Assembly (NCBI RefSeq): GCF_029227915.1
Contig: NC_079879.1
Location: 27,160,501 to 27,224,500, forward strand
Reading direction: 5' to 3'
DNA: 64,000 nucleotides
From: Hydractinia symbiolongicarpus
Taxonomy: Eukaryota; Cnidaria; Hydrozoa; Anthoathecata; Hydractiniidae
Shown: positions 1-23,247 of the stretch, piece by piece
How the letters are laid out: each line of letters opens with the position of its first letter
Position numbering within the stretch: position 1 is the first letter of the stretch
Notes under the pieces: generated by a model
Seen by the model: the letters and a program-made list of their open reading frames with translations, nothing else
The model's database searches: none
What the model was told of the DNA's origin: nothing
Program-made: the position numbers and the translations under genes

Positions 1-1347
1 AGATATACTATCAGATTTTATAATCAAAACACAACAGGTGTCCCATATCACCGGTATTCTTATGATGATAGCCAAAAAATAATGTTCAACAGCTGGCACA
101 TACCAAAGGAGTTTTCCTGGCCCAACAATCAAAAAAATGCTCCTATTTCTGTATGTTCAAAACAGGAATGTCCACCTTCATTTGAAAATAGAAAAGAACA
201 CTTTTTGTCACATGAGACATTATGGCAGAAAGAATACAGTTGGGTCTGCAGAAAATGCAAACCCGGGCATTTTAAAAGCAAAATCGGTAACCAGTCTTGT
301 ATAAAATGCAATGAACATTTAATTGCAAATGATCAGCAAACAGCTTGTATCGATCCATACCAAAATGAACATCTAAGCATTTTCGATATACCAGTACTTA
401 TTTCCGAAGTAGTGTCCTTAACAGGGCTTCTGTGGCAAGTATTTGTCATCACAGTTTTTGTTAAGTTTCGCAAGACGCCCTGCGTAAAATCTTCAAACTT
501 TGTCATGTCTATAACACAATTGATTACGTTTGCAGTATTTTTTCCTTTTTACAGCTACGTAACAATAGAAAAACCTTCCTTTCTAATATGCACAGTGAAG
601 CCGTGTGTTATTGGAATAATCTTGACGTTTGGGATATCTATCACACTTTCAAAAACACAAAAGCTTCTTTTTGCCTTTCAAGCAAAAACAAAATTGACCA
701 GGTCTGCATTAATTCTGACAAAGGCAACAGAAGTGTTGATACTTAGCCTATTGTTGCTAATTGATTGTGCAATTATTGCTGCTTCATACCTGCAGATCAA
801 AGTGGAAGTTCGAGAGCATCCCGACAATAATGTAATGAAAAGGTACTTCTATTGCAGTACCGACAACAATGTTTTGATCCACGCAGTTTTCTTGTTATGC
901 TTATCCATCACATGCAACGTACAAGGATTTCGCGCGAGAAAATTACCACAAAATTTCAACGAAACAAAGTTTATTCTATATGGCACATTCGTTTTCAGTT
1001 TGGTAATGGTGATGTTATTTCCGTTATATTATAGTCAACAAAACCCATTAACAAAAGCCGTTTTAAACCTAATCTTACCTTCCATTGGGATTCTGCTTCT
1101 GTCGATCATTTTATACGGTAACAAGGTGTTCATAATTTTGCTTCATCCGGAAAAAAATACAGCAAAGTCCTTTCGAAAGGGGGTTCTTGAAAATATGAGA
1201 AAAAGAGTTGAAAAAGAAACAAGACGAAGGGAAAAAAAAATCTTGAGAGAAAGCACGTCCAATCAAAGAACATCATCGGTTAAATCTCAAAGCTGTTTTG
1301 AGAAAGATGAAGAATCGATATCAAGAAAGATAAAAGAAAATAGCTAA
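1..1347 (+). CDS. Class C G-protein-coupled receptor (metabotropic glutamate-like), 3' part
   Basis: Reading is open from base 1 (at least 448 codons), so the coding region enters from outside the window; the first internal ATG is at 82 and is unlikely to be the true start. The first part matches the end of the Venus-flytrap ligand domain. A cysteine-rich NCD3G-type linker follows (CRKCKPGHF, then CIKC), then seven hydrophobic helices. The strongest family mark is FRARKLPQNFNETKF before helix 6, which corresponds to the conserved intracellular loop 3 of mGluR/CaSR-type receptors. The tail is short, lysine/arginine-rich and probably coiled. Such receptors sit in the plasma membrane and signal through G proteins after binding small ligands extracellularly. 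No frameshift or stop is seen, and the 7TM part appears to be a single exon. The ligand cannot be inferred because the binding domain lies outside the window. Confidence 0.88.
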   Translation, partial: RYTIRFYNQNTTGVPYHRYSYDDSQKIMFNSWHIPKEFSWPNNQKNAPISVCSKQECPPSFENRKEHFLSHETLWQKEYSWVCRKCKPGHFKSKIGNQSCIKCNEHLIANDQQTACIDPYQNEHLSIFDIPVLISEVVSLTGLLWQVFVITVFVKFRKTPCVKSSNFVMSITQLITFAVFFPFYSYVTIEKPSFLICTVKPCVIGIILTFGISITLSKTQKLLFAFQAKTKLTRSALILTKATEVLILSLLLLIDCAIIAASYLQIKVEVREHPDNNVMKRYFYCSTDNNVLIHAVFLLCLSITCNVQGFRARKLPQNFNETKFILYGTFVFSLVMVMLFPLYYSQQNPLTKAVLNLILPSIGILLLSIILYGNKVFIILLHPEKNTAKSFRKGVLENMRKRVEKETRRREKKILRESTSNQRTSSVKSQSCFEKDEESISRKIKENS

Positions 1348-1380
1348 GAAACAGTCGCAAACATAAATACGAAAGCTAAC

Positions 1381-1386
1381 AATAAA
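1381..1386 (+). promoter_or_regulatory. Polyadenylation signal of the class C receptor gene
   Basis: An AATAAA lies about 34 bases after the receptor stop codon. A second GAATAAAG occurs near 1467. Either could serve the transcript; the first would give a very short 3' UTR. Confidence 0.4.
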
Positions 1387-3022
1387 GTGAGAAAAGTAGA
1401 ATACACTATTTCATTGGCTGTAATTACTTAAATAATTGCACATTTCAGAAAAAGTGCTTCTTAGTTGAATAAAGCCTCCGGTTTAAATAGGTGAGGCCAT
1501 TACGTAGCTCAGTTCTTGAGATTGCTTTGCGTGATAAAGGTTTAAGCAGAACGAAAGATAAAAATTATTATTTAAGACACATTATTTTTCATAAGCAACC
1601 AATACAAGTATGTTCTAAGGTTAAAAGAGATGTATTTGTATGTTTACTAAATTTGTTTGTTGTATATATAAACTGGGAAAATACATTCTGGCTAAGGGAA
1701 TAAAAATTTTTTTTTTTCAAATACCTTAAATACCGAGAGGCGAATTGCGCTGCGGCACGGCTACTGAATAAAAGTTTACGAGAAGTGTTGATTTTAAAGA
1801 CCAGACTGATTGGCTTGCTCGCCTGCTCCATAAACTACAACTATAAACCATGCATCATTTTGTTTACATTTTTGTGAGTGCTGAGTTATTTAAAATTGAG
1901 TATTTTTACGCATTTGTCAAACGGGTGGCTAAATTAAAAAACAATGGGACATATTTCTCTCTTTATTATGATGGTCACGGGGTCAATGTACACAAAGTGA
2001 TTTAATAAGAAAAAGTTGAAGATCAAAATGGCAAAAATGTTGAACAACATGTATATTATTTTGTACTATTAACTTGCCAATAAAATAGCGATTAAAGATA
2101 AAGAAAGTAAAAAAACAAGGAAGAAAGAGCCATCATATTCCACGTTCGATTTGTTATTGAAGGTTTCCGGTCTGTATATTTATTCAAATTTGGCGCCATC
2201 CCATGATAACTAACTTTATCGTTCGAAGTTGGTAGTATGTTGTTGAAAAGGGACTCAAAACATGAAAAATTATTGTTGTTGGTTATGACAGATATTTCTT
2301 TAGTTCAAAGAAGTTTAAACAAAGGTTATAAAATGCTGTTACTACTATAGTACGTAAAATATTCTTGGTTATCTCAAGTGAAAGATGAAATAATACCACA
2401 AATAAAACGTAATTTCTCTGAAACCTAAATGACGCCTTAGGTATTTCTGACATCATATTACGTACCCAGGGGACAAACAAAGAATCTTTCTTTATGACAC
2501 TGTTGGAGGTGTATTATTGCGCTGAAGTATTCCGACAAAACTGTTCTAGAAGAATTGATCGTCGAATTGCGCACGGGCATATCATCCTCTTACATGATGT
2601 TATGAGAACTCGCAGTTTCCAAACATTACACAAAAATGTACAGTAGAAAATAACCGTAATAACATGTGTAGCAACAGAAAAGGTAAAACTTCAGAAAATA
2701 ATTTGCGGATACAATAGTAGCTAGCTGATAAAAAAAATCTAGGTGTATATAAAAATCTAATTTCTAGAAAAACTCTTTGCAAGTCTAAGAAATTATCTGT
2801 TTGGTGCATGATAACTGCAAAAACATTAAGTAATTCTTTTACATTAGCGCAATAATACGAAAAAACACTCTACCAATATTTCTTATAACTTCTTAAATCT
2901 AACGGCAAACGTCAATCTTCACTTATAACTGTGTAATATACTAACTTTGGATTGTCGTGCATTTTTCTGGAAGGAAGGAAATAAAAAAGACATTGAAATT
3001 TCCCGCCATTGCTGTTATCGAA
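1387..3022. other. Intergenic stretch without a supported gene
   Basis: AT-rich sequence between the convergent receptor and membrane-protein genes. Only short, stop-interrupted frames are present, and no RNA gene, terminal inverted repeat or tandem array was recognised. Confidence 0.5.
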
Positions 3023-6000
3023 TTAACTTTGCTGTGTGATAATTTGAGACTGCGGTGGCATCTGCACCTCTCCAGAAACATAAAAAACAGTGCTAGTATC
3101 CTCAGTTATGGGTGCTGGCTGTTGAACATTGTTCGAAGAACGCGACCGATGGCAGCAACAACAAAAGACAATCGAAGCAACCCAAACAACGAAACTTCCA
3201 ACGAGAACAAATATTTTCTCCAACAAACTCATTGAATTCCACCATGCTTCAAGATCTAAAAAAAAGAAGATAAAATATATAAAAAGTAGTATCTTTCTTA
3301 TCACGAGTGATCACGATATTTTTTGCGTGATAAAATTTGGTTTAGAAGGTAACACGGATTTCCCTTATACTAAATAGGTGTCAAATGTGTAGCATAATCT
3401 GTTCCTATTGTTCACAAATTATTGAAGAAATTAGTTTGGTTGATGATAAGCATCACATAGGTAAGTATGGGACGAATGTAATAAATATTTAAAAATGCTA
3501 TTTAAATTATCTTTTCTCTATATTTTATAATAGTAGTCAAACATTAGACACACCTCTGCTATGCGAGATACATGTGTTTTTTATAACAGAATATATTTTT
3601 AATAGAGTTTGAAATTAACTATTTACCGTTGCAGTCAACAGGTACGCTCCTCTGTAGAATCTTAACAGAAGTCGGAACAAAAAAAAGTCCAAGTCCTTTT
3701 AGCTTCAATGTTATCTAAAACACAAAAATAAGTATTTCACGCAAATCATAGGCTGTTTTAGACTCTTTATATTTGGTATAGATAATGCTTTGTTAAAAAG
3801 GTGTGACATTTCGAAAACTTGCTTGACTGCATCTTATCTGAAAATGTAAACAAAACATTTAAAGTCATTTTTTTTAAATTGTTATTTAGAAGACACCAAA
3901 GTAGAGAAATACATGAACGATTTTGGTACGTTTGAGTTCTTTACGGATTTTAACAGTGTAACTCAGCAGTTAGCACAAAAGGCGTAATAAAAAGCTCAAC
4001 AGTTGTGGCCATTTTGTTTAAGCCTTTCATGCCATATTTATATCTGCCAAGTTAGTTACCTGACCTTCAGTGGTCAGACACGTAATAATTTGGACTACGT
4101 GGATAGTACTTTCACCCTTAAAATATATCAACAAGTGTGTTGACAAGATGTGCAACATTATGAGTAATATATTTAATTTCTAGCAACACGATTCTCTACT
4201 TGTAGCTAACTATAAGTTTTTTAAGCCGGATAAATGAATTCACAAAGCTAATTATTTTGGATTTTAAGCCTAATCGCCCAAATAACATGATGGCATATTT
4301 ATATATTTTACAAAGATACTAACAGCATACTTGAGCTTTCAATCGCAGTATCACATGGTATGTAAAATGTGTAAAACTTCTATCTTAGAGGAAACCATCT
4401 ATTATCATTGACGTCGTCATTTTACTGACTGGCAATCTTGGTAAAAATTATCCAATAAATTTCTAGTAACACCAAATTGTATTGATTGTGACGGTAATTA
4501 TTGAAAATAGACCACAAAAGGTATTCTGTCTTGTTGTCCTTTTTTCCTATATTTCATGTCTTTAAATTCTGGGTGTTTCTATTGTATTAAAATTTTTATA
4601 ATGGCACGATTTTGTTCTTAGTTTAAAATGGGTCTGAGTGATTGTTGTTTATTAAAAAAAATTTGAATATTTTAAAGTTTATAAGCATTACTGGCGATTC
4701 GATTTATTAGGTTTGTGGTTAACAAGGAAATAAGTATAAATTTCAATGTATTGGTTTGAGGCCGATACTGGCTTAAACTGTTATCTTAAGATACTATTTC
4801 CAGATATAACACAGTCCTAAAGAAATCAAGAAAGTGCAATCTGTAATTTTAAGAACGACTGTTAAAACATTGTTGGTGTCAACGAAACCGGTTTTCAAAG
4901 ATTTACATCATTTTTAAAACTTGGTTTACACTTGTGGCATGAGCAACATACGCATACGTCGTACGTAAGTACGTGAAATGAGAAGCATAGACATAATGCA
5001 TTCCTACTTATGGTATAAACATAAAATTTAGCAAAAGATAGTGAGAGAGCTTTTGCTGCCTATGTTATCATGGCCACAAATTAAATTAATTAATAACCAT
5101 TTTTAAGTCTTCAAACTTGTCTTTTCTTGATCAGCCACATATTGCAAATCTAAGATAAGCTGTAAGACCTCTGCATTGCAAAAAAAATATCTTTGTCTTC
5201 TTTTTGCGTGTTACATCTGTATTAAGGCGCTATTCGCATAAATTGTCATAATAAACTTGTCATCATCCAGTGAAAAAATTGCACCTACACATTTTGGTTT
5301 ACACACAGAAAGTGGGTTTTATAATATAGATATAAAAACATAAATTATACTATTTGCGCGTTGAATGTAAAAATGTGAAACTCATAGATAGAGGTCGGTT
5401 TTTATGGAAGTTTTATACTTAATCCTATTAATTTCTATTTTTTTAATTCGCACTTATTGCACCAATAATTGTTCGTTAATTTGTTCCATTTTAAGAAAGT
5501 TAAAACAACACTGTATATATCAATTTCTATTAAAGCAAAAATTATGTAAGAATTCATACCGAAAGTTTTAGGTAATCGTTATCCTTAGTCATGTCTATCA
5601 CAATGTACCATCCTGCATTAAATATGGTTAAGTTAGGCACTGGGATGGATACAGAAGCATCAAAATCTCCTTTAAATGTCACCCCAGCCACTTTCATCTC
5701 CAAAGCAATGGTGGGCTTATCTTTACATGGTTCTACTTCTACTTTCAAACTTACATCCTTTCCAGAAATTTCATCAGAGCATTGAATAGTCAAACCACCT
5801 TCACTTGTGGTGCAAGATGCTGAAACATGTAGCATAAAAACAGTCATATTTGTTAGAATATCCTGGAAAATGTTATGTTCAATAGAACACGAACATAATT
5901 CCCTTTATTCAAGAACTATGAAAAAAACATATCTTTAAAAAGCAAATTAACAAGAAGGTAATTTTGTGCAGGCTAAAAAAAATCACAGGCTAAAAAAATC

Positions 6001-6076
6001 ATCTACCTGCAATTTCACGTACAATAACAGCAAGAAGAAAAAAGGAGAAAAAACGTTCCCTTAAATTACCAGACAT
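3023..6076 (-). CDS. Small type I membrane protein, four exons, unrecognised family
   Basis: Four exons fit by splice signals and phase: 6076-6007, 5819-5560, 3714-3627 and 3255-3023 (216 codons plus stop). Exon 1 is a signal peptide starting MSGNLRERFFSFFLLAV and ends in phase 1 at CAG/GTAGAT. Exon 2 follows a TTTCAG acceptor and encodes a cysteine-containing ectodomain (ASCTTSEGG, VEPCKDK). Exon 3 has a TTTTAG acceptor; it enters in phase 0 and leaves in phase 1. Exon 4 follows a strong pyrimidine tract and holds the membrane helix (FVLVGSFVVWVASIVF), a CCCC palmitoylation-like cluster and a short Ser/Pro/Gln-rich tail. All three phase junctions agree, which is hard to get by chance. The product would be a surface protein with one small extracellular domain. 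I do not recognise the ectodomain and assign no function. Confidence 0.72.
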
Positions 6077-9000
6077 TTTTTAAAGCTTAAATCCATTTCA
6101 GAGGCGTCGGAATATAATCATCATAATATTTTTCTAAGGTTTCTTAAATTATTAAAAAGAAGTTATTCATTATAAAAAAAAAAATATTAAATAAAACATG
6201 ACAACAATAATATTAACAATGTAAAATTTATGTTCATAAAACATAGATTAGTTCTAAGAAATCAATTATCAAATACCTTATTCCAGCTATCATTGTCATG
6301 TAGCTATTTTCGTCGAACCTCATTCCAAGGACATGGAAAATAGAACATGATATGTGAAATAGCATTAGTGTTAATTTGTTAAAATGAATTAAAGGAAACC
6401 AACCGTGACACACTCATCATGCACTCAACATTAACTTTTGAGCTAACTAAATATCTAAAAAACACAGCCATTATATTCTCATTTATATTACTCTTTGAGT
6501 AAATAACGCGTGTGAATTTGAATATTTCGTATATTATCTCCAGGTCACAATTTTGGTCAAAGGAGATAGTAAAAACAAGAACCCAGTCAAATGAATTACA
6601 TATATTGGCAAAAAAGGTCAAGGCTAGAATACATGTCCTTTGAAATGCTGCTTCCTCATTCAATACTTACATGACAGGAACATTCAAATTTACGCGATTT
6701 AAAACAGTTTAACCCCCTTAGGCTAGACTTTTGGTGGCTTCTGGTAAAGTGGGCTAAGGAAGGGGGAAGGGGGTTGCTCACAGATTGAAACAGACGGACA
6801 TTCAGTCTACACACGGGCGAACTTTATTTACGTTTTAGCAAGGTTTTAAAAAAAATTAAATAAATATAGCATATTATATTGACATGTTACTGCATCTTTT
6901 TTCAAAATAGACACCCTAGGCTAACCTTGTTATTAGGGTAGGTAAAAAATGTACTTTTTCAGAGAAAGAAGGCTCCAACTTCCTGCACTTAGTATCAACC
7001 ATACATTATTCGGTAATAAACAGATTCCTCTTTGAAATGGAAAACTTATTATTAATGCTAAACCTTGAATGAATGAAAAATAAGTTTAAAATGGTCAATC
7101 AATGCATCTATAACAAATTAAAATGACATTCGTGTATCTACCATTTTCAGTTAAGCAGGATTGTGATCGTTTGGTTTTGAGAGACAATTTCGACCTTGAC
7201 TCAACTTTTAACATAAAGTAGTAACTTTTAACATCTTTCATGTCAAACAACTACACGAAAAATGATGGGAATATGACGAGATCCAGCGATGCTTAAATAT
7301 TAAAGATCAAAATACACCAAAAAGCATTCTGAGCAAAAAATTTGGAAGGATTTGTATATTACGAAAAATTTGGTCACATTTTGTCTTTACAAAAAGAAAC
7401 AAGGAGCCTCAAGGCTTGAAGTTTTCCGCCTTGTCAAGAGAAACTTTCCACAGAGCAAAACGTATAATGGTCGACCCAAGGCTGAGATTTCCAATTTAAA
7501 AACAGGATAAATGATTGAATAATTGCGCAAAACTATGTGACTTAACCGCTTTTTGAGGCTTTTTGACTATTCCATTTCTTGAGTAGTTTTAGTTGTAAGA
7601 ACAATGATTTGAGTCTGGGATTCATGTCAAGGTTCATGTTCTTATAACATTGTTCTTATATAAAAAAGGGGTTAAAGTAACCTGGTCTGAAAAGTATTAA
7701 ATATGGGCGACAAATAACGCAATTTAGATATACTTCAATTTAATTACACCTGAATAAATAACAAAAATATGCAGATTTACACACAGTTATAAAAAGTATA
7801 AAAACTTGGGATCTACCTAGAAAGTTCTAAAAATTTTCATGATACAAATTCTGTAAAATCATAGAAGAACCATAGACGTCTAGTTTCCCTTAAAAATAAT
7901 GTGAAGTAAATACTATTAACCAAAATAAGACTATAATAAATTATATAAATATATATTAGTTTTAGTGATTCATTTTTCACAAATTAATGTTTGCAGTATA
8001 CTCTGTCAACATTTTTTTGGAAATGCTGATAATGGCTGTGTTAGATTATGGCTGACCTAAAAAAGAAAGAAAAATACTAAAAAAACATATATGAAGAACT
8101 CAAAATAATCTTAGCACATTATTGTGATATTGTTCTGTGCCCTATATATTTAAAGATGACAGGTATAAATGCAAGATAAAATAAAATATTTCACTATTTT
8201 ATGAAGTTTTGATAAAAAAATCAGGTGATACTGTGAAACGCCAAGTATTTGTGATGTCTGTCTTTCCAAAAAGAATACCTGCGTGTTCAAAGACAAATTT
8301 TGGAAGTTTTATAAATATTTAATTTTTTTGAAAGTTCAGAAACGTGCCTAAAAGCATCCCTAAAATGTTATATTCAACAGTGACCAAGAATACCATATTT
8401 ACTCTAGTCTATTATTACTTCACCACTGGATTAGTGTTTTAACCTACAAATAAGGTGGGTTTAGCAGGAATCCTATATTGCAGGATATATAGGCCGGATA
8501 TGTTGAATTATTTTTGGGTAAAAAACCTGAGTGTAGTATTATTTTTGTGCAATGTGCAATATTAATTTTTGGGTGCCTAAAGTTCAATTATTTCAGCAGA
8601 GGCAAAATCAGTATTTTGTCTAACATAGTATTCAGAAGTTAGGGCATTTACAAATGAGCAACATAGAACCCAATAACTTTGATCCTAAAGAAATCAAAGT
8701 ATGAAGAAATAAAAAAAATTTTAATTGTTGCGGCTAGCTGAAATGGAAAATTTTGCGGAATAATTTTTCAGAACCGATGTTTGACTGGTTTCTAAAATTT
8801 CTGTGGAACATTTTTACAGATTTGGCCCAAAGTTCTGCAAAAAAAAGTTCCACAAAAATTTCTTCCACAGATAGTGTATGCTAATTTTGAAAATATTTTT
8901 TACAATCCATGGCAAAAAAAGGCAGGATTACTTGAAAAACAGGGAAACTGGATAATAGAGTAAATATGTACAGTATACTTGATGCTTTTTTAAAGCTACA

Positions 9001-17096: not shown

Positions 17097-17488
17097 ATTT
17101 AAAAAGGAAGTAACCTCAAAAATGTAAAAAATTTTTTTTGACTACGTATTTGTATTTGAACTTATAAAATCAGAAAAATAACACATAAACACAAGAATTT
17201 ATCTCTAAATACCTATATTCCCTGTTCATATCTCCGTAAAAACTTTTTGAGAAAAGCGTGTCAAAATAAAAAAGACTGGGTTCTAATTTGAATATGAAGT
17301 TTTATAGTTCAAAACATTGAGATAGCTAGACGAGGCCCTATGTTGGTGCTTTTAATGCAACAGACTTTCGAATAAGAAACAAAAAAAATGCATCATATAG
17401 TTTCTTGTGCAGTGACGAAGAAAACACTGTTCCAGACATTTCGACTCTAAAGTCATTCAGTTTTAAGGCTGAAATGTCGTTGGAAGAG

Positions 17489-17520
17489 TACGATGGCACT
17501 GAAGGGTCACACTTCCATAC
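17489..17520 (+). repeat. Left terminal inverted repeat of the HECT/DDE element
   Basis: 32 bp, identical to the reverse complement of 23072-23103; outer end TACGATGGCACTGAAGGGTC. Preceded by the target duplication GAAGAG. Confidence 0.92.
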
Positions 17521-17715
17521 GAAAAATTGAAACTTCCATACAAAAAATTGAAACTTTTATAAAATCTCTCAAGGTTTTAGAAACGTTTTTAGAACTTCTA
17601 CAAAAATTTTTGAAACTTCTACAAATTGTTTTTGAAACTTTTATAACACATTTTATTTTTTTCATAAATATATTCATTATTAAACAGACGACTTCACAGA
17701 CGCAAATATGTTTCG

Positions 17716-18190
17716 CGAGGGCCTAATTACGCATGGCACATTGACGGTCATGACAAATTGAAACCCTTTGGGTTTTCGATCCACGGTTGGATTGATGGCT
17801 TCTCGAGAAAATTAATCTGATCAGATGACAGTACCAAACATTATTTGATTGAGCCAATTCATGTTTATTTACATAGTTCAACTGACAGTCAAAACAGCTT
17901 GGGCTTTTTTAGTATTATCTCTTCCTCAGAAAATCAAAGAAATTGAGTCCTACTGGTCTACCTTACAGCGTGATTGCATTGGTTGGTGGAAATCATTTTT
18001 CAGAGATATGACCAACCTAAATGTTTTTAAAGTTCGGATCCTGTTTTAGTCGATTGCATACGCCGTTAATCTGCAAGGAGTTGCAGACTGTTTGAGATGA
18101 GTGGAATTCACACCCTAATGTTTCCCCGAGTTCAAGGAGTTCGCACAAACTTTGATGCAGCAAAATGGATGGGACTTTCCTAATGTTATT
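17716..18190 (+). pseudogene. Decayed DDE-integrase transposase
   Basis: From 17716 the + strand reads RGPNYAWHIDGHDKLKPFG and then IHGWIDGFSRKLI. This is the first catalytic Asp region of a metazoan integrase-core family whose hallmark is WHIDGYDKLKPFG. After an in-frame TGA it continues SDDSTKHYLIEPIHVYL (second Asp). In another frame follows KEIESYWSTLQRDCIGWWK, matching the NQRIExxW catalytic-Glu region, and then a DEWNSH-like end near 18098. So D, D and E are all recognisable, but there is a large deletion between the first two, one stop and at least two frame changes. The N-terminal DNA-binding part is absent. It lies just inside the left terminal repeat, as expected for the element's own transposase. 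Confidence 0.75.
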
Positions 18191-18536
18191 TCAGATGCGT
18201 TACGTCTGTACATGTACTTGCTATCAAAGATCGAACAGTATTCATAGAACATAGTTAACTGTTTAAACTCTTTTTTTAATCCAAATTTAGTATTACGTGT
18301 TTAATATTAAAGTATGAAACAGACCCCTTCATAATTTTCAGACATTCTTCAATTTTCCCAGATATTCATGCATTTGATAAAAAAACACAATAAAAATTAA
18401 TCGACACAAAATTTTTTATTGCACCTAAAATCCCTCTCCAAAATTGTATAAAGAAAGTGTTAACAAAACAGAATACTGGAAACTCTATTGTCTGTCAGTT
18501 CAAACATAGCAAAACAAGAAAGAATCCAAAATCGGT

Positions 18537-20775
18537 TTAAATGATGTCCAACTCCCATTCAGATGACTGCAATATATTGCTGAATTCTTCACGGAGTTCG
18601 CAATAATTATTATAAGTTGAAGGAAGTTCTAAGCTTGGTGTACATGTGTGAGCTACTGGTCTACGACTAAAATTCGATTCCGGTCGCGTGAAAATTATTT
18701 CTACTGTATCAACAACCATGTTATCTGAGCCTGTTATGAACTTTATAAATTTTTTCAACATAATGGTTTCCAAACCTCTCACATACCGCTTTAAATAATT
18801 GAATGAGTCTTGTTCAGCACTGCTACTCGTATGGACATTTTTGAACAAGGCTTCAACGTTTTTTGTGGTTGATTCCAATCTTTCGTAAAACTTCACAATA
18901 TTCTCCATGGATGAAAATTTTGGCTTCTTTTTAAGCTCTGAAAAGGCAACTTTCCAACATGAGGCTATAATGTGACTTTTCTGTACAAGTTCCTGGTGAC
19001 CTAATTCAATGATAACTGATTTCACATTTGATTCTGTTACTACAGTTTTACATTTTAATTGTTCCAAAATTTCAGCAAATTCATCACTGTGAATAACATT
19101 CTCACCTTCGCTTTTAGCAATGGCTTTTGTCACCAACTGACTTTCATCTGATGACAAGTATTTCAGGAATGAAGATATGAGCAGCTCTTCTGGCACTTCT
19201 CCGAACAAACAAAAACATAAAAATGCTCGACTCAAACTGATTGGAAAGTAACCAGTGTCAACAGACCCCTTTAAAATGATCATGCCAATTGCACGCCACT
19301 CTTGTTTGTACAAATCATGCCGAACTTGTGGCACTCTTTCTTGCTCACCATACAAGTATGCATTGTATACTTCATTCCAGAATGAAGAATAAATATCGCG
19401 AGAAACACCTGACCCTGCACCATTTTCTTCTTGGCCACGAGGATCAATCCATATATATCGGATGTCATCTGTCACATTGATCTAAGATGAAAACCAAAAT
19501 ACATTATGTCATTGTGTTATATTCTATATATGCAACAAGGTAACTGTTATTATAGAAGAGCAACATAAAATAATAAACTGAATACTTTGGACTTTATGAC
19601 TTAGGATACCTGGACTTTGAAGAAGATAACTAATTCAATAAGACATGTGTTTTTATTATTGTTTTATTGTATTCAGAGAGGGTCTTAATTACTGTAAAAT
19701 ACAAAATGGTCTCACCTGCTTAGTAATAAATAAATCCATCAAATCTTTCTTTATCGTCATGCAGTGTATTTTAGCAATGTGCTGTACTACGTCTGTAACA
19801 TCAGAACTTGTGCTTGCATTATCCAAATTTGAAGGCTAGATCGCACCGGTTGCTATAGTTATTGAAGCTCCAGCTAAAGTTTGAATCCTTCTTTCTCTCA
19901 ATTGATTTAAAGATGGCCTTTCTTCTTCGTTTTCATTTGAAAGTTCAGAGTCATCATCAAGAAGGTTCAAACAAATTGCCAAACAAGTTCAAGTTGCTAT
20001 CTGCAATACAAGAAGCACTATACTCATTATTTTGGAAGCAAATAATACATTGGTTTCCGATATAGCTGCAATGACAAACAGAACATATATGTCGCCTGCT
20101 AATTTCCTTTGGTTCTGTTATTTCTCAGTGAAAGTTTCAACGTAATCATTATTCAAAGTTTCTTGACCAGCTTCTACATACTCGTTATCATGGTCATATG
20201 CTACAGATTTAGTTGATAAAACAAACCAACACTTCGATAAAAATAGACCTTTCCTTTCAATGTATGCCCAAAGGTCTTCATCTTCATCTAATGTTTCCCC
20301 ATTTGGACCACATAACGACTTCATGCACTCTGATTCTGCCTCTATGTAACTATTACAGTCATTTTGGTCAAAATACAACTTCAAAGCTTTGTATTTAAGC
20401 TCTTCAAAATGGTGTTCAATGGTGTTCCACTTTCCACCTTGATGAATAGATATCCACCCGCATCTTTCTGTTTTACTATTTCGTATCTTTCTCTCAATGG
20501 ATTATATCGCTCCCATTTCACTTGTACTTTTTTGATCTTTCGAGGTGTGTAACTTTTCGAAGAGGATGACGAAGCCTTTTGACGAACTCTTGACAATAAA
20601 TTGTCAAGACGAGTTTCTGTTTCCGTTTTTTGTTGGCACTACTAGTGCTCGAAGAACTTGAAGAACCGTCATCGGGGTTGTTTGTATTACAGCAACTACT
20701 TGCTGTTGACTTTGAAGTATTCATCATGTACGATTCTACCTGGCTGCGTACAATTTGCTCCAGCACGGCGTCCAT
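18537..20775 (-). pseudogene. HECT E3 ubiquitin-ligase gene carried by the transposon
   Basis: Last exon 19481-18537 (314 codons, open): the N-lobe begins near DIRYIWIDPRGQEENGAGSG and the C-lobe ends with RRPVAHTCTPSLELPSTY. The Cys in TCTPSLELP is in the position of the HECT catalytic cysteine that accepts ubiquitin from an E2. A 234-bp intron (19715-19482, GTGAGA...TTAG) joins it in phase 0 to an upstream exon ending DLFITKQ. The N-terminal part (start at 20775, MDAVLEQIVRSQ) has a Ser/Lys-rich region, a KWERYNPL segment and a Cys/His cluster (HICSVCHCSYIGNQC near 20080). It needs about four frame changes (near 20618, 20430, 20120 and 19955) and has an in-frame TAG at 19838-19836. It is therefore broken as one gene, though the HECT exon itself is clean. 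Unlike a retrocopy, it keeps an intron. Confidence 0.7.
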
Positions 20776-20926
20776 GTTTGTTTATAATTTAGTATCATTA
20801 ATTTTACGGTAGCAGATAGAACCTTTCAAAAAAAGTTATAAAAGTTCCAAAGTTTTTTATAGAAGTTCGCAATTTTTTTTACAGAAGTTTTTTGAATTGA
20901 ATGAAAGTTTTTATTATTATGAATAG

Positions 20927-22957
20927 ATTTGGGAGCAGAAATAAGGAAGGGGAGAGATTGCTTGAGTTTGGAATGGCAACGGTCATGGTGGTTTGCAACA
21001 CATCATTCAGTAAGAGACAGAGTAGGCTGATAACATATGAGTCAGGTGGTTGTAAGACACAGATAGATTACTTCCTGGTTAGTAAGTCAGACAAGAAAGT
21101 GGTGAAGGACGTGAAAGTTATATCGGGGGAAGAGTGTGTTTCCCAGCATAGGTTGCTGGTTTGTGATATTATCTTGAAGAGTGTTAAAGAAGCCAAGGGA
21201 AAGTACAGGCCCTGTCGAAAAGTCTGGAAGCTGAAGGAAGAGATTGTAGCAAGACAATTTAGTGCAAAAGTTCAGCAGTTAGCCCACAATGGTCAATGTG
21301 ATAGTGACAATGTTGAAAGTACTTGGACTACTTTGAAGAATTGTCTTCTTCTGATGATACCTGTGGGTGGACGAAAGGACCAGCTAGATATAGACAGACC
21401 TGGTGGTGGAATAATGAGGTTGACCAGTGTATAAAGGAAAAGAGGAAACTTTGGAAAGAGTGGAAGTCAGGTGGTAGTAAAAATATTTACTTAGAAGCTA
21501 AGCGTCGCGCTCGTACAGCAGTGTATAAAAAATCAGAAGCAGAGAGAAACAGATTTGCAGATGTGTTAAGAAGGGAAGACCAGCGCAATGAGGTTTCAAG
21601 ATAGCAAAGCAAATGAAGAAGACTAATCAAGATGTAGGTAAGAAGTGTATACGTAATGATGAAGGTGTTTTGGCTAGCACAGAGGAGGAGAAAAGGGTAG
21701 CTTGGAAGAATCATTATCAGAGGTTGCTTAACACTGAGTTTGATTGGGACGAGGATAATTTGTCTGATGATGATGTTGTAGAAGGGCCAGCTATGCAGAT
21801 CAAGACAGAATGGGTAGTGGAGGCTATTAGGAAATTCAAGATTGGCAAGGCTGCAGGAGTATCAGGTATTGTTGCAGAGATGGTAAAAGCATCTGGATAT
21901 ATTGGAGTTGAGCTTAGTGTAAATGTTGGTGTACATCAGGGTTCTGTACTTAGTCCTTTGTTGTTTATTCTAGTCTTAGAAGCGCTGTCGATGGAGTTCA
22001 GAACAGGTTGTCCATGGGAGTTGTTGTATGCAGATGATTTGGTTCTCATAGCAGAGTCGATGGAAGAATTAGTTGAAAAGTTTGAGGAGTGGAAGAAAGG
22101 ACTAGAAGAGAAAGGGCAAAAGGTAAACACAGCAAAGTATAAAGTCATGATTAGTAGCATTGCAGCCAAGTGTGACCTTGTAGTTGGAAAGTGGCCTTGT
22201 GGAGTTTGCAGGAAAGGGGTTGGTAGTAACTCAATTTTTTGTCAGACTTGCAAGCATTGGGTACATAAGAAGTGCAGTAGTATTAGTGGAAGGTTAAGAG
22301 CTGACATACAGTTTGTATGCAAGCGTTGCAAAGGTGAGATTATAGAGAATGAAGTATTTCCAGCTTTAATGATGTACAACAGTGGCTCGTTAGAGATAGT
22401 TGAGAACTTCTGTTACTTAGGTGATATGTTAGGCAGTGAAGGGGGTGTTGGAAGAAGTGTTACTTGCAGGATAGGTTTTGCTTGGAAAAAGTTCAGAGAG
22501 TTACTTCCTTTGTTGACTAGCAGAGTCCTGTCAATTAAGGTAAAAGGTAGGTTGTATGAGGCCTGTGTAAGAAGTGTTATGTTGTACGGTAGTGAGACAT
22601 GGGCAGTGAAGCAGGAAGATCTTGATCGTTTAGAAAGGAATGATATGAGAATGGTTAGGTGGATGTGTAGTCTCCGTAGAATTAAAGATGTTATCCACAT
22701 ATGAAGATTGAATTGGCTGGGGCACTTGGAAAGAATGGAGGAGGATAATTGGGTAAGAAAGTGTAGAGACTTGATACTTCATTGGGCAAAGCCCAGAGGC
22801 AGACCGAGAAAGACTTGGCAGGAGGTTATAAGGACAGACTTGATACAGAGGAAGTTGAGTTTAGATCTAACACAGTCTAGATCAGATTGGAAGAGGGTCA
22901 TTAATATACCCCGTTTAACCCATGCTAGCATGGAAAACGGACGTTAAGCAGAGAATG
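20927..22957 (+). mobile_element. LINE (APE-type non-LTR retrotransposon), 5'-truncated and internally deleted
   Basis: Starts within the endonuclease (GSRNKEGERLLEFGMA, then SGGCKTQIDYFLVS). It continues into a reverse transcriptase with HQGSVLSPLLF and LYADDLVLIAES, i.e. the catalytic YADD. A small Cys/His finger follows (CGVCRKGVGSNSIFCQTC), as in the 'craniofacial development protein 2-like' LINE group, and then the C-terminal region (ARPRGRPRKTW-like, here AKPRGRPRKTWQ). The first RT motifs are missing between MVKASGYIGVE and LSVNVGVHQG, so an internal deletion removed them; frame changes occur near 21430, 21605 and 22703. ATGAATAG flanks both ends (20919-20926 and 22958-22965) and may be the target duplication. 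It is inserted in the subterminal repeat of the HECT/DDE element. Confidence 0.8.
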
Positions 22958-23071
22958 ATGAATAGAAGTTTGCATTTTTTTCAAAGATAGTTATTTCAAT
23001 TATTTGTATAGAAGTTTTTGTTTTTTTAAACGGAAGTCTAAATTTTTTGAATAGAAGTCTCAATTTTTGTT

Positions 23072-23103
23072 GTATGGAAGTGTGACCCTTCAGTGCCATC
23101 GTA
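23072..23103 (-). repeat. Right terminal inverted repeat of the HECT/DDE element
   Basis: Reverse complement of the left repeat, followed by GAAGAG at 23104-23109. Confidence 0.92.
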
Positions 23104-23247
23104 GAAGAGCAATATAAATTTTTAAGTTCAAACCATGAAGACGAAGTTGTACAAAAAGAAGGCAATCGAATTGGATCGAAAATACAAATAATTTCGCCAA
23201 ATATAAAGTCTTTCATATTTATAATCATGACTGGAGTGATATCCATT

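Follow-up and report, generated by a model that had tools for sequence, protein, structure and literature searches.

A HECT ubiquitin-ligase gene accompanies the transposase in IS3EU/GingerRoot-type DNA transposons of Hydractinia symbiolongicarpus

We identified a decayed copy of a cut-and-paste DNA transposon in the cnidarian Hydractinia symbiolongicarpus that pairs a transposase gene with a gene for a HECT-type ubiquitin ligase. The element occupies positions 17483-23109 of the window, which denotes the whole stretch of DNA analysed (64,000 nt; assembly GCF_029227915.1, contig NC_079879.1, 27,160,501 to 27,224,500, forward strand), and all coordinates are window positions. With its relatives, it very probably represents a two-gene transposon of the IS3EU/GingerRoot type whose HECT ligase is under selection, an assessment that concerns the gene pair and not the substrate of the ligase. 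We regard these elements as encoding a HECT E3 ligase because the pair recurs, diverges in parallel, is constrained and keeps its catalytic residues. A preliminary description of the window had recognized an element with terminal inverted repeats (TIRs), an integrase-type transposase and a HECT gene; this observation is confirmed overall, and its interpretation is partly supported.

Architecture of the window copy

The features of the element are listed in Table 1. Its ends are identical over 32 bp (17489-17520 against 23103-23072) and 95% identical over 38 bp, and the flanks match at a length of 6 only among the lengths from 3 to 11 compared. The left end (17483-17560) is matched 41 times in this genome, and the ends are therefore not a chance repeat. 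The subterminal repeats form arrays at both ends, repeating about every 21-23 bp in the copies of three families examined; the left array of copy L011 contains 8.2 units of 21 bp. The left subterminal repeats are probably binding sites of the transposase. GingerRoot inverted repeats span 100-150 bp, and those of the window family are perfect over up to 32 bp. A search of viral contigs with the 27-bp end, whose scope may have excluded records of the window's own genome, returned no match.

Table 1. Features of the transposon copy, in window positions
Feature	Position	Strand	Remarks
Left target-site duplication GAAGAG	17483..17488	.	Exact match to 23104-23109
Left terminal inverted repeat, starts TACGATGG, 32 bp perfect	17489..17526	+	
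Left subterminal repeats, spacing about 21 bp	17510..17660	+	
Decayed transposase gene (Pfam rva_4)	17682..18245	+	About the N-terminal third deleted, stops, one frameshift
HECT domain, last exon, 314 aa open	18537..19481	-	Pfam HECT 1.1e-10
GT-AG intron, phase 0	19482..19715	-	Read by eye
Upstream HECT-gene exon	19716..20775	-	Start region MDAVLEQIV, CxxC..CxxC; frameshifts and one stop
Nested LINE insertion (reverse transcriptase, PHD finger)	about 20928..22954	+	Foreign to the transposon
Right subterminal repeats	22960..23080	-	Inverted relative to left array
Right terminal inverted repeat	23066..23103	-	
Right target-site duplication GAAGAG	23104..23109	.	Exact match to left copy

The transposase gene lacks about 100 bp between the first and second D regions, which share one frame, and its E region lies in another. 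The codons of the catalytic regions, read by eye, are near 17743-17745, 17824-17829 and 17945-17947. The integrase matches Pfam rva_4 at 1.4e-8 in the window and at 1.5e-29 in copy L011. Among its relatives the DDE triad is kept in 117-118 of 120 sequences, and the HHCC pattern is absent from all 75 relatives that reach at least 370 aa.

The HECT gene is convergent with the transposase gene, and its active-site cysteine (residue 280 of the window HECT) is encoded at 18644-18642. The HTC columns of the HECT profile align with AHTC of HUWE1, and the catalytic cysteine is present in 129 of 146 relatives (15 gaps); a bilobal HECT fold was found for the transposon ligase. Copies L012, L025 inner and L026 have the intron at the equivalent position. 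The upstream exon includes a stretch that is ubiquitin-like in relatives, as seen in a domain model from a relative in L025 (mean pLDDT 72, pTM 0.39). Foldseek related this N-terminal domain to LC3, UFM1 and ubiquitin at low significance (E about 1e-3 to 1e-2), with other folds also among the matches, so that only a beta-grasp shape is supported; judging from the model, the domain is probably ubiquitin-like. Of the 88 proteins compared, 27 have a basic stretch among their first 200 residues.

The preliminary description had thus been accurate in reporting perfect 32-bp inverted ends, a 6-bp duplication GAAGAG, repeated subterminal words, a broken integrase with three recognizable DDE regions and a convergent HECT gene with the catalytic motif TCTPSLELP. 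It had missed the LINE insertion and the broken upstream HECT exon. Because that exon contains frameshifts and a stop, and the transposase is also broken, both genes of the window copy are dead. The LINE, a later insertion, is absent from the sister copy L011; by eye, it is flanked by a 12 bp duplication (20916-20927 / 22955-22966) matching at 11 of 12 positions. Nested insertions are also present in copies L025, L013 and L012.

Recurrence of the gene pair

Starting from the window's ends, we traced 18 elements in the same genome, of which 14 combine transposase sequence with sequence of the HECT domain. The remaining four (L009, L017, L018/19 and L025 outer) are deleted or truncated copies without the HECT domain, and all of them still contain pieces of the HECT gene. 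Exact 6-bp duplications flank 12 distinct insertions (12 of 13 rows, corresponding to 11 distinct insertions, plus L026; L020 failed); 11 of these 12 have TA at each end, and L018/19 has TG at one of them. Both checks proposed in the preliminary description, namely whether copies with these ends keep both genes and whether 6-bp duplications recur, therefore gave positive answers in Hydractinia. L019 was merged into L018, and L024 into L023, on account of shared flanks; L009, L010, L022, L023/24 and L025 outer, each with a missing or decayed end, were left out of the duplication test. Diverged pieces with transposase and HECT similarity beside L020 and L025 were not counted as elements. The left end initially considered for L020 was rejected, as it belongs to another, diverged element and the flanks mismatch.

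Eight further transposase loci (L033-L040) were chosen blind to HECT. In four of them (L033, L034, L036 and L037), TIRs enclose the transposase together with a convergent HECT gene, which is a weak match in one case; the transposases of these four are 30-50% identical to those of the window family. Their inverted repeats align over 87 (L034), 105 (L036), 277 (L037) and 283 bp (L033) at 77-92% identity. Exact 6-bp duplications were found in four of five diverged loci and TA ends in all four diverged elements. At L035 the partner gene is represented by its N-terminal part alone, with no TIR or target-site duplication seen. Within the 5.5 kb taken, no HECT was found at L038-L040, which belong to another, higher-scoring rva_4 group; HECT is thus not a companion of every rva_4 gene. 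The HECT sequences of L033 and L036 gave no significant match to the window's HECT profile, so a single common capture is not demonstrated for these two. Overall, the pair is present in seven Hydractinia families, enclosed by TA..TA inverted repeats at least about 30 bp in length. Where an element has both its ends and an exact duplication (16 cases), both domains are contained in 14, and the other two are internal deletions.

Record sizes and locus numbers suggest linkage of the pair in the octocoral Dendronephthya as well. An equal record length of 2994 was set aside as a sign of linkage, being short and shared by two records from different sources. The HECT profile, run over genome contigs and viral contigs in a search possibly excluding records of the window's own genome, yielded 164 and 54 pattern stretches, respectively, none of them confirmed.

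Divergence and constraint

Transposase and HECT diverge in parallel (r 0.95). Between families, pN lies far below pS; synonymous sites are saturated, and for this reason we give no between-family ratio. Within families, the ratios are 0.46-0.67 for HECT and, for the transposase, 0.76-2.83 in the window family and 0.23 in L026/L027. These values indicate no clear constraint in the window family, and constraint is visible in the between-family counts only. Both the parallel divergence and the between-family constraint argue against a chance capture of HECT.

Classification and known relatives

The preliminary description had named no superfamily for the element. Its TA..TA ends, 6-bp duplications and integrase-like DDE transposase are published features of IS3EU/GingerRoot, and we assign it to this superfamily by these features. 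Ginger1 and Ginger2 also came into consideration, on account of the integrase-like core. As far as the available text of the published account goes, IS3EU/GingerRoot elements have TA..TA termini, 6-bp duplications and a DDE transposase without HHCC, and supposedly occur in animals too; that text mentions neither HECT nor ubiquitin, whereas the Hydractinia element has a HECT gene. Neither Ginger nor IS3EU is mentioned in the accessible text of the paper on the Hydractinia genome (PMC11067881).

One parallel comes from rust fungi, whose IS3EU elements, in the available text, share with Hydractinia the TAYGG..CCRTA ends, the 6-bp duplications and a second enzyme gene opposite the transposase (PMC12730594). 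In contrast, the second gene there encodes an alpha-kinase (plus TET/JBP) rather than a HECT ligase; the TET/JBP genes are thought to aid escape from methylation-based silencing. Styx of Zymoseptoria, IS3EU-related and with four coding sequences (PMC10853768), and the IS3EU-derived 'Intons' (PMC3520738) likewise encode more than a transposase, but HECT appears in neither text, as far as available. Helitron-encoded deubiquitinases are also transposon enzymes of the ubiquitin system; however, they remove ubiquitin where a HECT ligase adds it, and they belong to a different transposon class (PMC9741609, in the text available). IS3EU elements with other extra genes are already known from fungi; the HECT ligase as second gene sets the Hydractinia elements apart from these. 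The literature searched contained no report of HECT in IS3EU-type elements, a statement that Repbase or the GingerRoot article could still qualify by recording a second ORF.

The transposon ligase shares the HECT fold and the catalytic cysteine motif with the host E3 ligases UBR5, HUWE1, UBE3C, HERC and E6AP. It differs from them in sequence (11-18% identity in domain-spanning alignments), in its N-terminal ubiquitin-like and CxxC..CxxC architecture, and in being encoded by a transposon.

Possible roles of the ligase

From what is known of these protein families, the transposase would bind the subterminal arrays and move the element. The ligase would load ubiquitin from a host E2 onto its cysteine and hand it to a substrate selected by its ubiquitin-like/zinc-binding N-terminal part, and may act in trans to favour transposition. 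Elements with their own ubiquitin-tagging enzyme suggest active manipulation of the proteins of their cell. The preliminary description had called the ligase cargo; the pairing is real and recurrent, but the term understates what is a standing component.

We tentatively favour a host-directed role, to which we give somewhat less than an even chance, in which the ligase may ubiquitinate a silencing or restriction factor of the chromatin or small-RNA pathway. Such a role would fit the between-family constraint on the HECT gene and the basic stretch near the N terminus of some proteins. It also finds precedent in the proposed silencing evasion by fungal TET/JBP (PMC12730594) and in a 2012 meeting report which, in its accessible part, describes diverse transposons carrying conserved host-derived proteins as suggested regulators of transposition (PMC3520738). 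Conservation, however, would fit any benefit exerted in trans.

Ranked second, and rather unlikely in our estimate, is that the ligase marks the transposase of its element, either limiting the transposase level and so avoiding overproduction inhibition, or helping to dismantle the strand-transfer complex, as ClpX does with that of MuA. The retention of both domains in 14/16 elements would be consistent with this, as would the parallel divergence expected of interacting proteins, although linkage by itself yields parallel divergence and, to our knowledge, most DNA transposons do without a ligase.

That a host HECT fragment was captured once and amplified as a functionless passenger is very improbable and largely contradicted: both genes of the window copy are disrupted and within-family constraint is not clear, but diverged families contain open HECT genes with the catalytic cysteine, and pN between families is far below pS. 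We reject, as the least probable reading, a HECT gene that inserted into or beside the transposon on its own; nested insertions do occur in the window and other copies, yet gene order and convergent orientation are the same across independent insertions and diverged families, the intron has the same place in three copies, and the window's long inverted repeats pair the end regions of the element and not the HECT flanks alone.

Taken jointly, the observations would be compatible with a speculative scenario that we consider possible but not probable. A single early uptake of HECT in an animal IS3EU/GingerRoot branch would have made it the defining second gene, and unnamed cnidarian and fish HECT models would largely be transposon genes. 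The alpha-kinase of fungi and the HECT of animals would sit in the same slot, convergent to the transposase, and the superfamily would repeatedly recruit enzymes of post-translational modification as a means of controlling either host restriction or the transposition complex of the element itself. If the favoured two-gene reading is true, a DNA transposon group widespread in animals encodes, under selection, a ubiquitin ligase of its own, and this would offer a handle on the host protein or transposition step that ubiquitin controls. For annotation, uncharacterized cnidarian HECT genes may be transposon genes; the Hydractinia NCBI models LOC130656470, LOC130626009 and LOC130646033, for example, are 78-92% identical to the window HECT exon over the aligned parts.

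Structure of the element in the window

The transposon copy carries the features named in the preliminary description, namely perfect inverted ends with a GAAGAG duplication just outside them, a broken integrase, and a HECT ubiquitin-ligase gene convergent with it. All three catalytic (DDE) regions of the transposase are recognisable, with the stretch between the first two gone and the third in another frame. The LINE fragment lies in the right subterminal region next to a 12-bp duplication (11/12 matching), and sister copy L011 lacks it. Given the decayed transposase, the broken upstream exon of the HECT gene and the inserted LINE, the window copy itself is dead.

Features of the window element and inverted-repeat starts of four transposase-picked loci
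Feature	Position	Strand	Description
Transposon copy	17489-23103 (5615 bp)		32-bp perfect inverted repeat, GAAGAG duplication outside
Transposase gene		plus	decayed, integrase-like; Pfam rva_4
HECT gene, upstream exon	from 20775	minus	disrupted by frameshifts and a stop
HECT gene, intron	19715-19482	minus	GT-AG
HECT gene, last exon		minus	314 aa, open
Nested LINE fragment	20928-22954		reverse transcriptase and embedded PHD finger
TIR start, L033			TACCGTGG
TIR start, L034			TACGATGG
TIR start, L036			TACGGTGG
TIR start, L037			TACGGAGC

Both genes recur between the same ends

Searching the same 480.9-Mb assembly with window 17483-17560 gave at least 41 matches, which fall in the window and at 18 further places, 19 in all. 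Merging L018/L019 and L023/L024, which have common flanks, leaves 17 places, and an element nested in L025 brings the total to 18 elements. Transposase and HECT-domain sequence, partly incomplete, occurs in 14 of them (window, L010, L011, L012, L013, L014, L015/16, L020, L021, L022, L023/24, L025 inner, L026 and L027). L009, L017 and L018/19 retain fragments of the transposase and, of the HECT gene, the N-terminal part alone; the outer L025 copy has HECT-gene pieces only. When flanks were compared at lengths of 3 to 11 bp, 12 of the 13 rows tested were identical at 6 bp alone, L020 failing; one matching row is a duplicate, and with L026 added there are 12 distinct insertions having a 6-bp duplication. 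Ten of these contain both domains, L017 and L018/19 being internal deletions. The preliminary description had asked whether intact copies keep both genes and whether 6-bp duplications recur; within Hydractinia most copies, though not all, hold sequence of both genes, and the duplications do recur.

An open transposase with D, D and E is found in L013, L023/24, L025 inner and L027. In L025 inner both genes are open, with a transposase of at least 381 aa and HECT stretches of 331 and 311 aa flanking the intron. The transposases of L011 and L012 are open, both 387 aa, with V replacing the first catalytic D, as might result if a single dead copy had been duplicated or moved by other copies. In L021 the second region has G in first position.

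Several copies contain further insertions. In L025, the HECT gene of an older window-family copy is interrupted by a two-gene element from a different family (582-5132), flanked by a TTATTG duplication of its own. L012 has an additional insertion between the HECT gene and the right end (about 4028-5598), one ORF of which we take to resemble a THAP domain; L013 has a large insertion within the HECT gene (3498-7462), whose 1096-aa ORF presumably resembles an LTR-retrotransposon polyprotein. L018/L019 and L023/L024 each lie on one contig in opposite orientation with common flanking sequence, which points either to inverted duplication of a large segment or to a misassembly.

Diverged families and a transposase-picked sample

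Relative to L012, which represents the window family, 45% of transposase and 48% of HECT residues differ in L025 inner, and 33% and 41% in L026. Despite this divergence, gene order, orientation and intron place are the same. Adjoining diverged transposase and HECT-like pieces, also convergent, lie at L025 8599-10290 (numbering continued into L029) and L020 about 483-2824, and seem to represent additional families of this type.

As a further sample, we hand-picked eight loci (L033-L040) by score and ORF length, using neither HECT nor the window ends, from the listed rva_4 matches (151 matches; 705 candidates, 150 scored). About 0.5 kb 5' and 4.5 kb 3' of the transposase core was taken, the 3' side being the expected HECT side. 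A convergent gene scores above the Pfam HECT cut-off in L034, L036 and L037 and below it in L033 (7.9e-4); the partner gene of L035 is the N-terminal part alone, with no recognisable HECT. No HECT gene lies within the DNA taken around the core in L038, L039 and L040, which belong to a higher-scoring rva_4 group. After extending L033-L037 by 1.5 kb of flank, a scan for inverted ends with exact 6-bp duplications gave, in each of L033, L034, L036 and L037, a single solution with both genes inside it, and no TIR/TSD in L035. Read by eye, L033, L036 and L037 have a cysteine in an LP-type C-lobe motif. The window HECT profile gives no significant match to L033 or L036, and a single HECT origin is therefore not established for these two.

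Relatives in other species and co-divergence

Among the best 120 of 413 matches, transposase relatives include Clytia, Dendronephthya, Oculina and Hydractinia. The HECT search (92 matches) returned cnidarians (Exaiptasia, Acropora, Stylophora, Desmophyllum, Nematostella, Dendronephthya) and fishes (Epinephelus, Notolabrus, Odontesthes, Merluccius). Contigs longer than 5 kb with transposase (43) and HECT (83) relatives show three exact size coincidences; among unequal pairs, none differs by 5 bp or less, 2 differ by no more than 20 bp and 10 by no more than 100 bp. One coincidence is in Dendronephthya, where the locus numbers are adjacent (114515611 and 114515612), sizes and numbers together suggesting that the pair is linked there too.

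Transposase and HECT distance matrices, in which HECT identities of the most diverged pairs are near 15-25% and close to noise, correlate across six linked pairs with r = 0.957, reached by 2 of 720 orders, the true one included. Ten pairs, three of them inferred from equal contig sizes, give r = 0.949, a value that 0 of 20,000 random orders reached; restricted to the seven Hydractinia families, the comparison gives r = 0.951 (2 of 5,040 orders). By Nei-Gojobori counts between families, pN is 0.27-0.33 and pS 0.78-0.83 for HECT, and 0.21-0.32 and 0.78-0.88 for the transposase; both genes are alike in being saturated at synonymous sites and not at amino-acid sites. Within families the ratios, from few changes, are 0.46-0.67 for HECT, and for the transposase 0.76-2.83 (window family) and 0.23 (L026/L027).

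Superfamily and proposed role of the ligase

By features alone, the ends, duplication and transposase type fit the IS3EU/GingerRoot superfamily as described in PMC10045372. TET-bearing fungal IS3EU elements have an alpha-kinase gene opposite in orientation to the transposase with a TET/JBP gene between them (PMC12730594), Styx is proposed to descend from a two-protein fungal IS3EU ancestor (PMC10853768), and a 2012 report mentions 'Intons' that encode five to six proteins (PMC3520738). Members of this superfamily are therefore already known to carry extra genes; the consulted portions of the literature on IS3EU-type elements and their extra genes make no mention of a HECT ligase.

We favour a mechanism in which the ligase would act in trans upon a host restriction factor; the main rival is that it controls or removes the transposase.

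At L038 (2-1477), in a different rva_4 group, a nearby ORF with a HEPN_DZIP3 domain (2.4e-13) is possibly another accessory gene.
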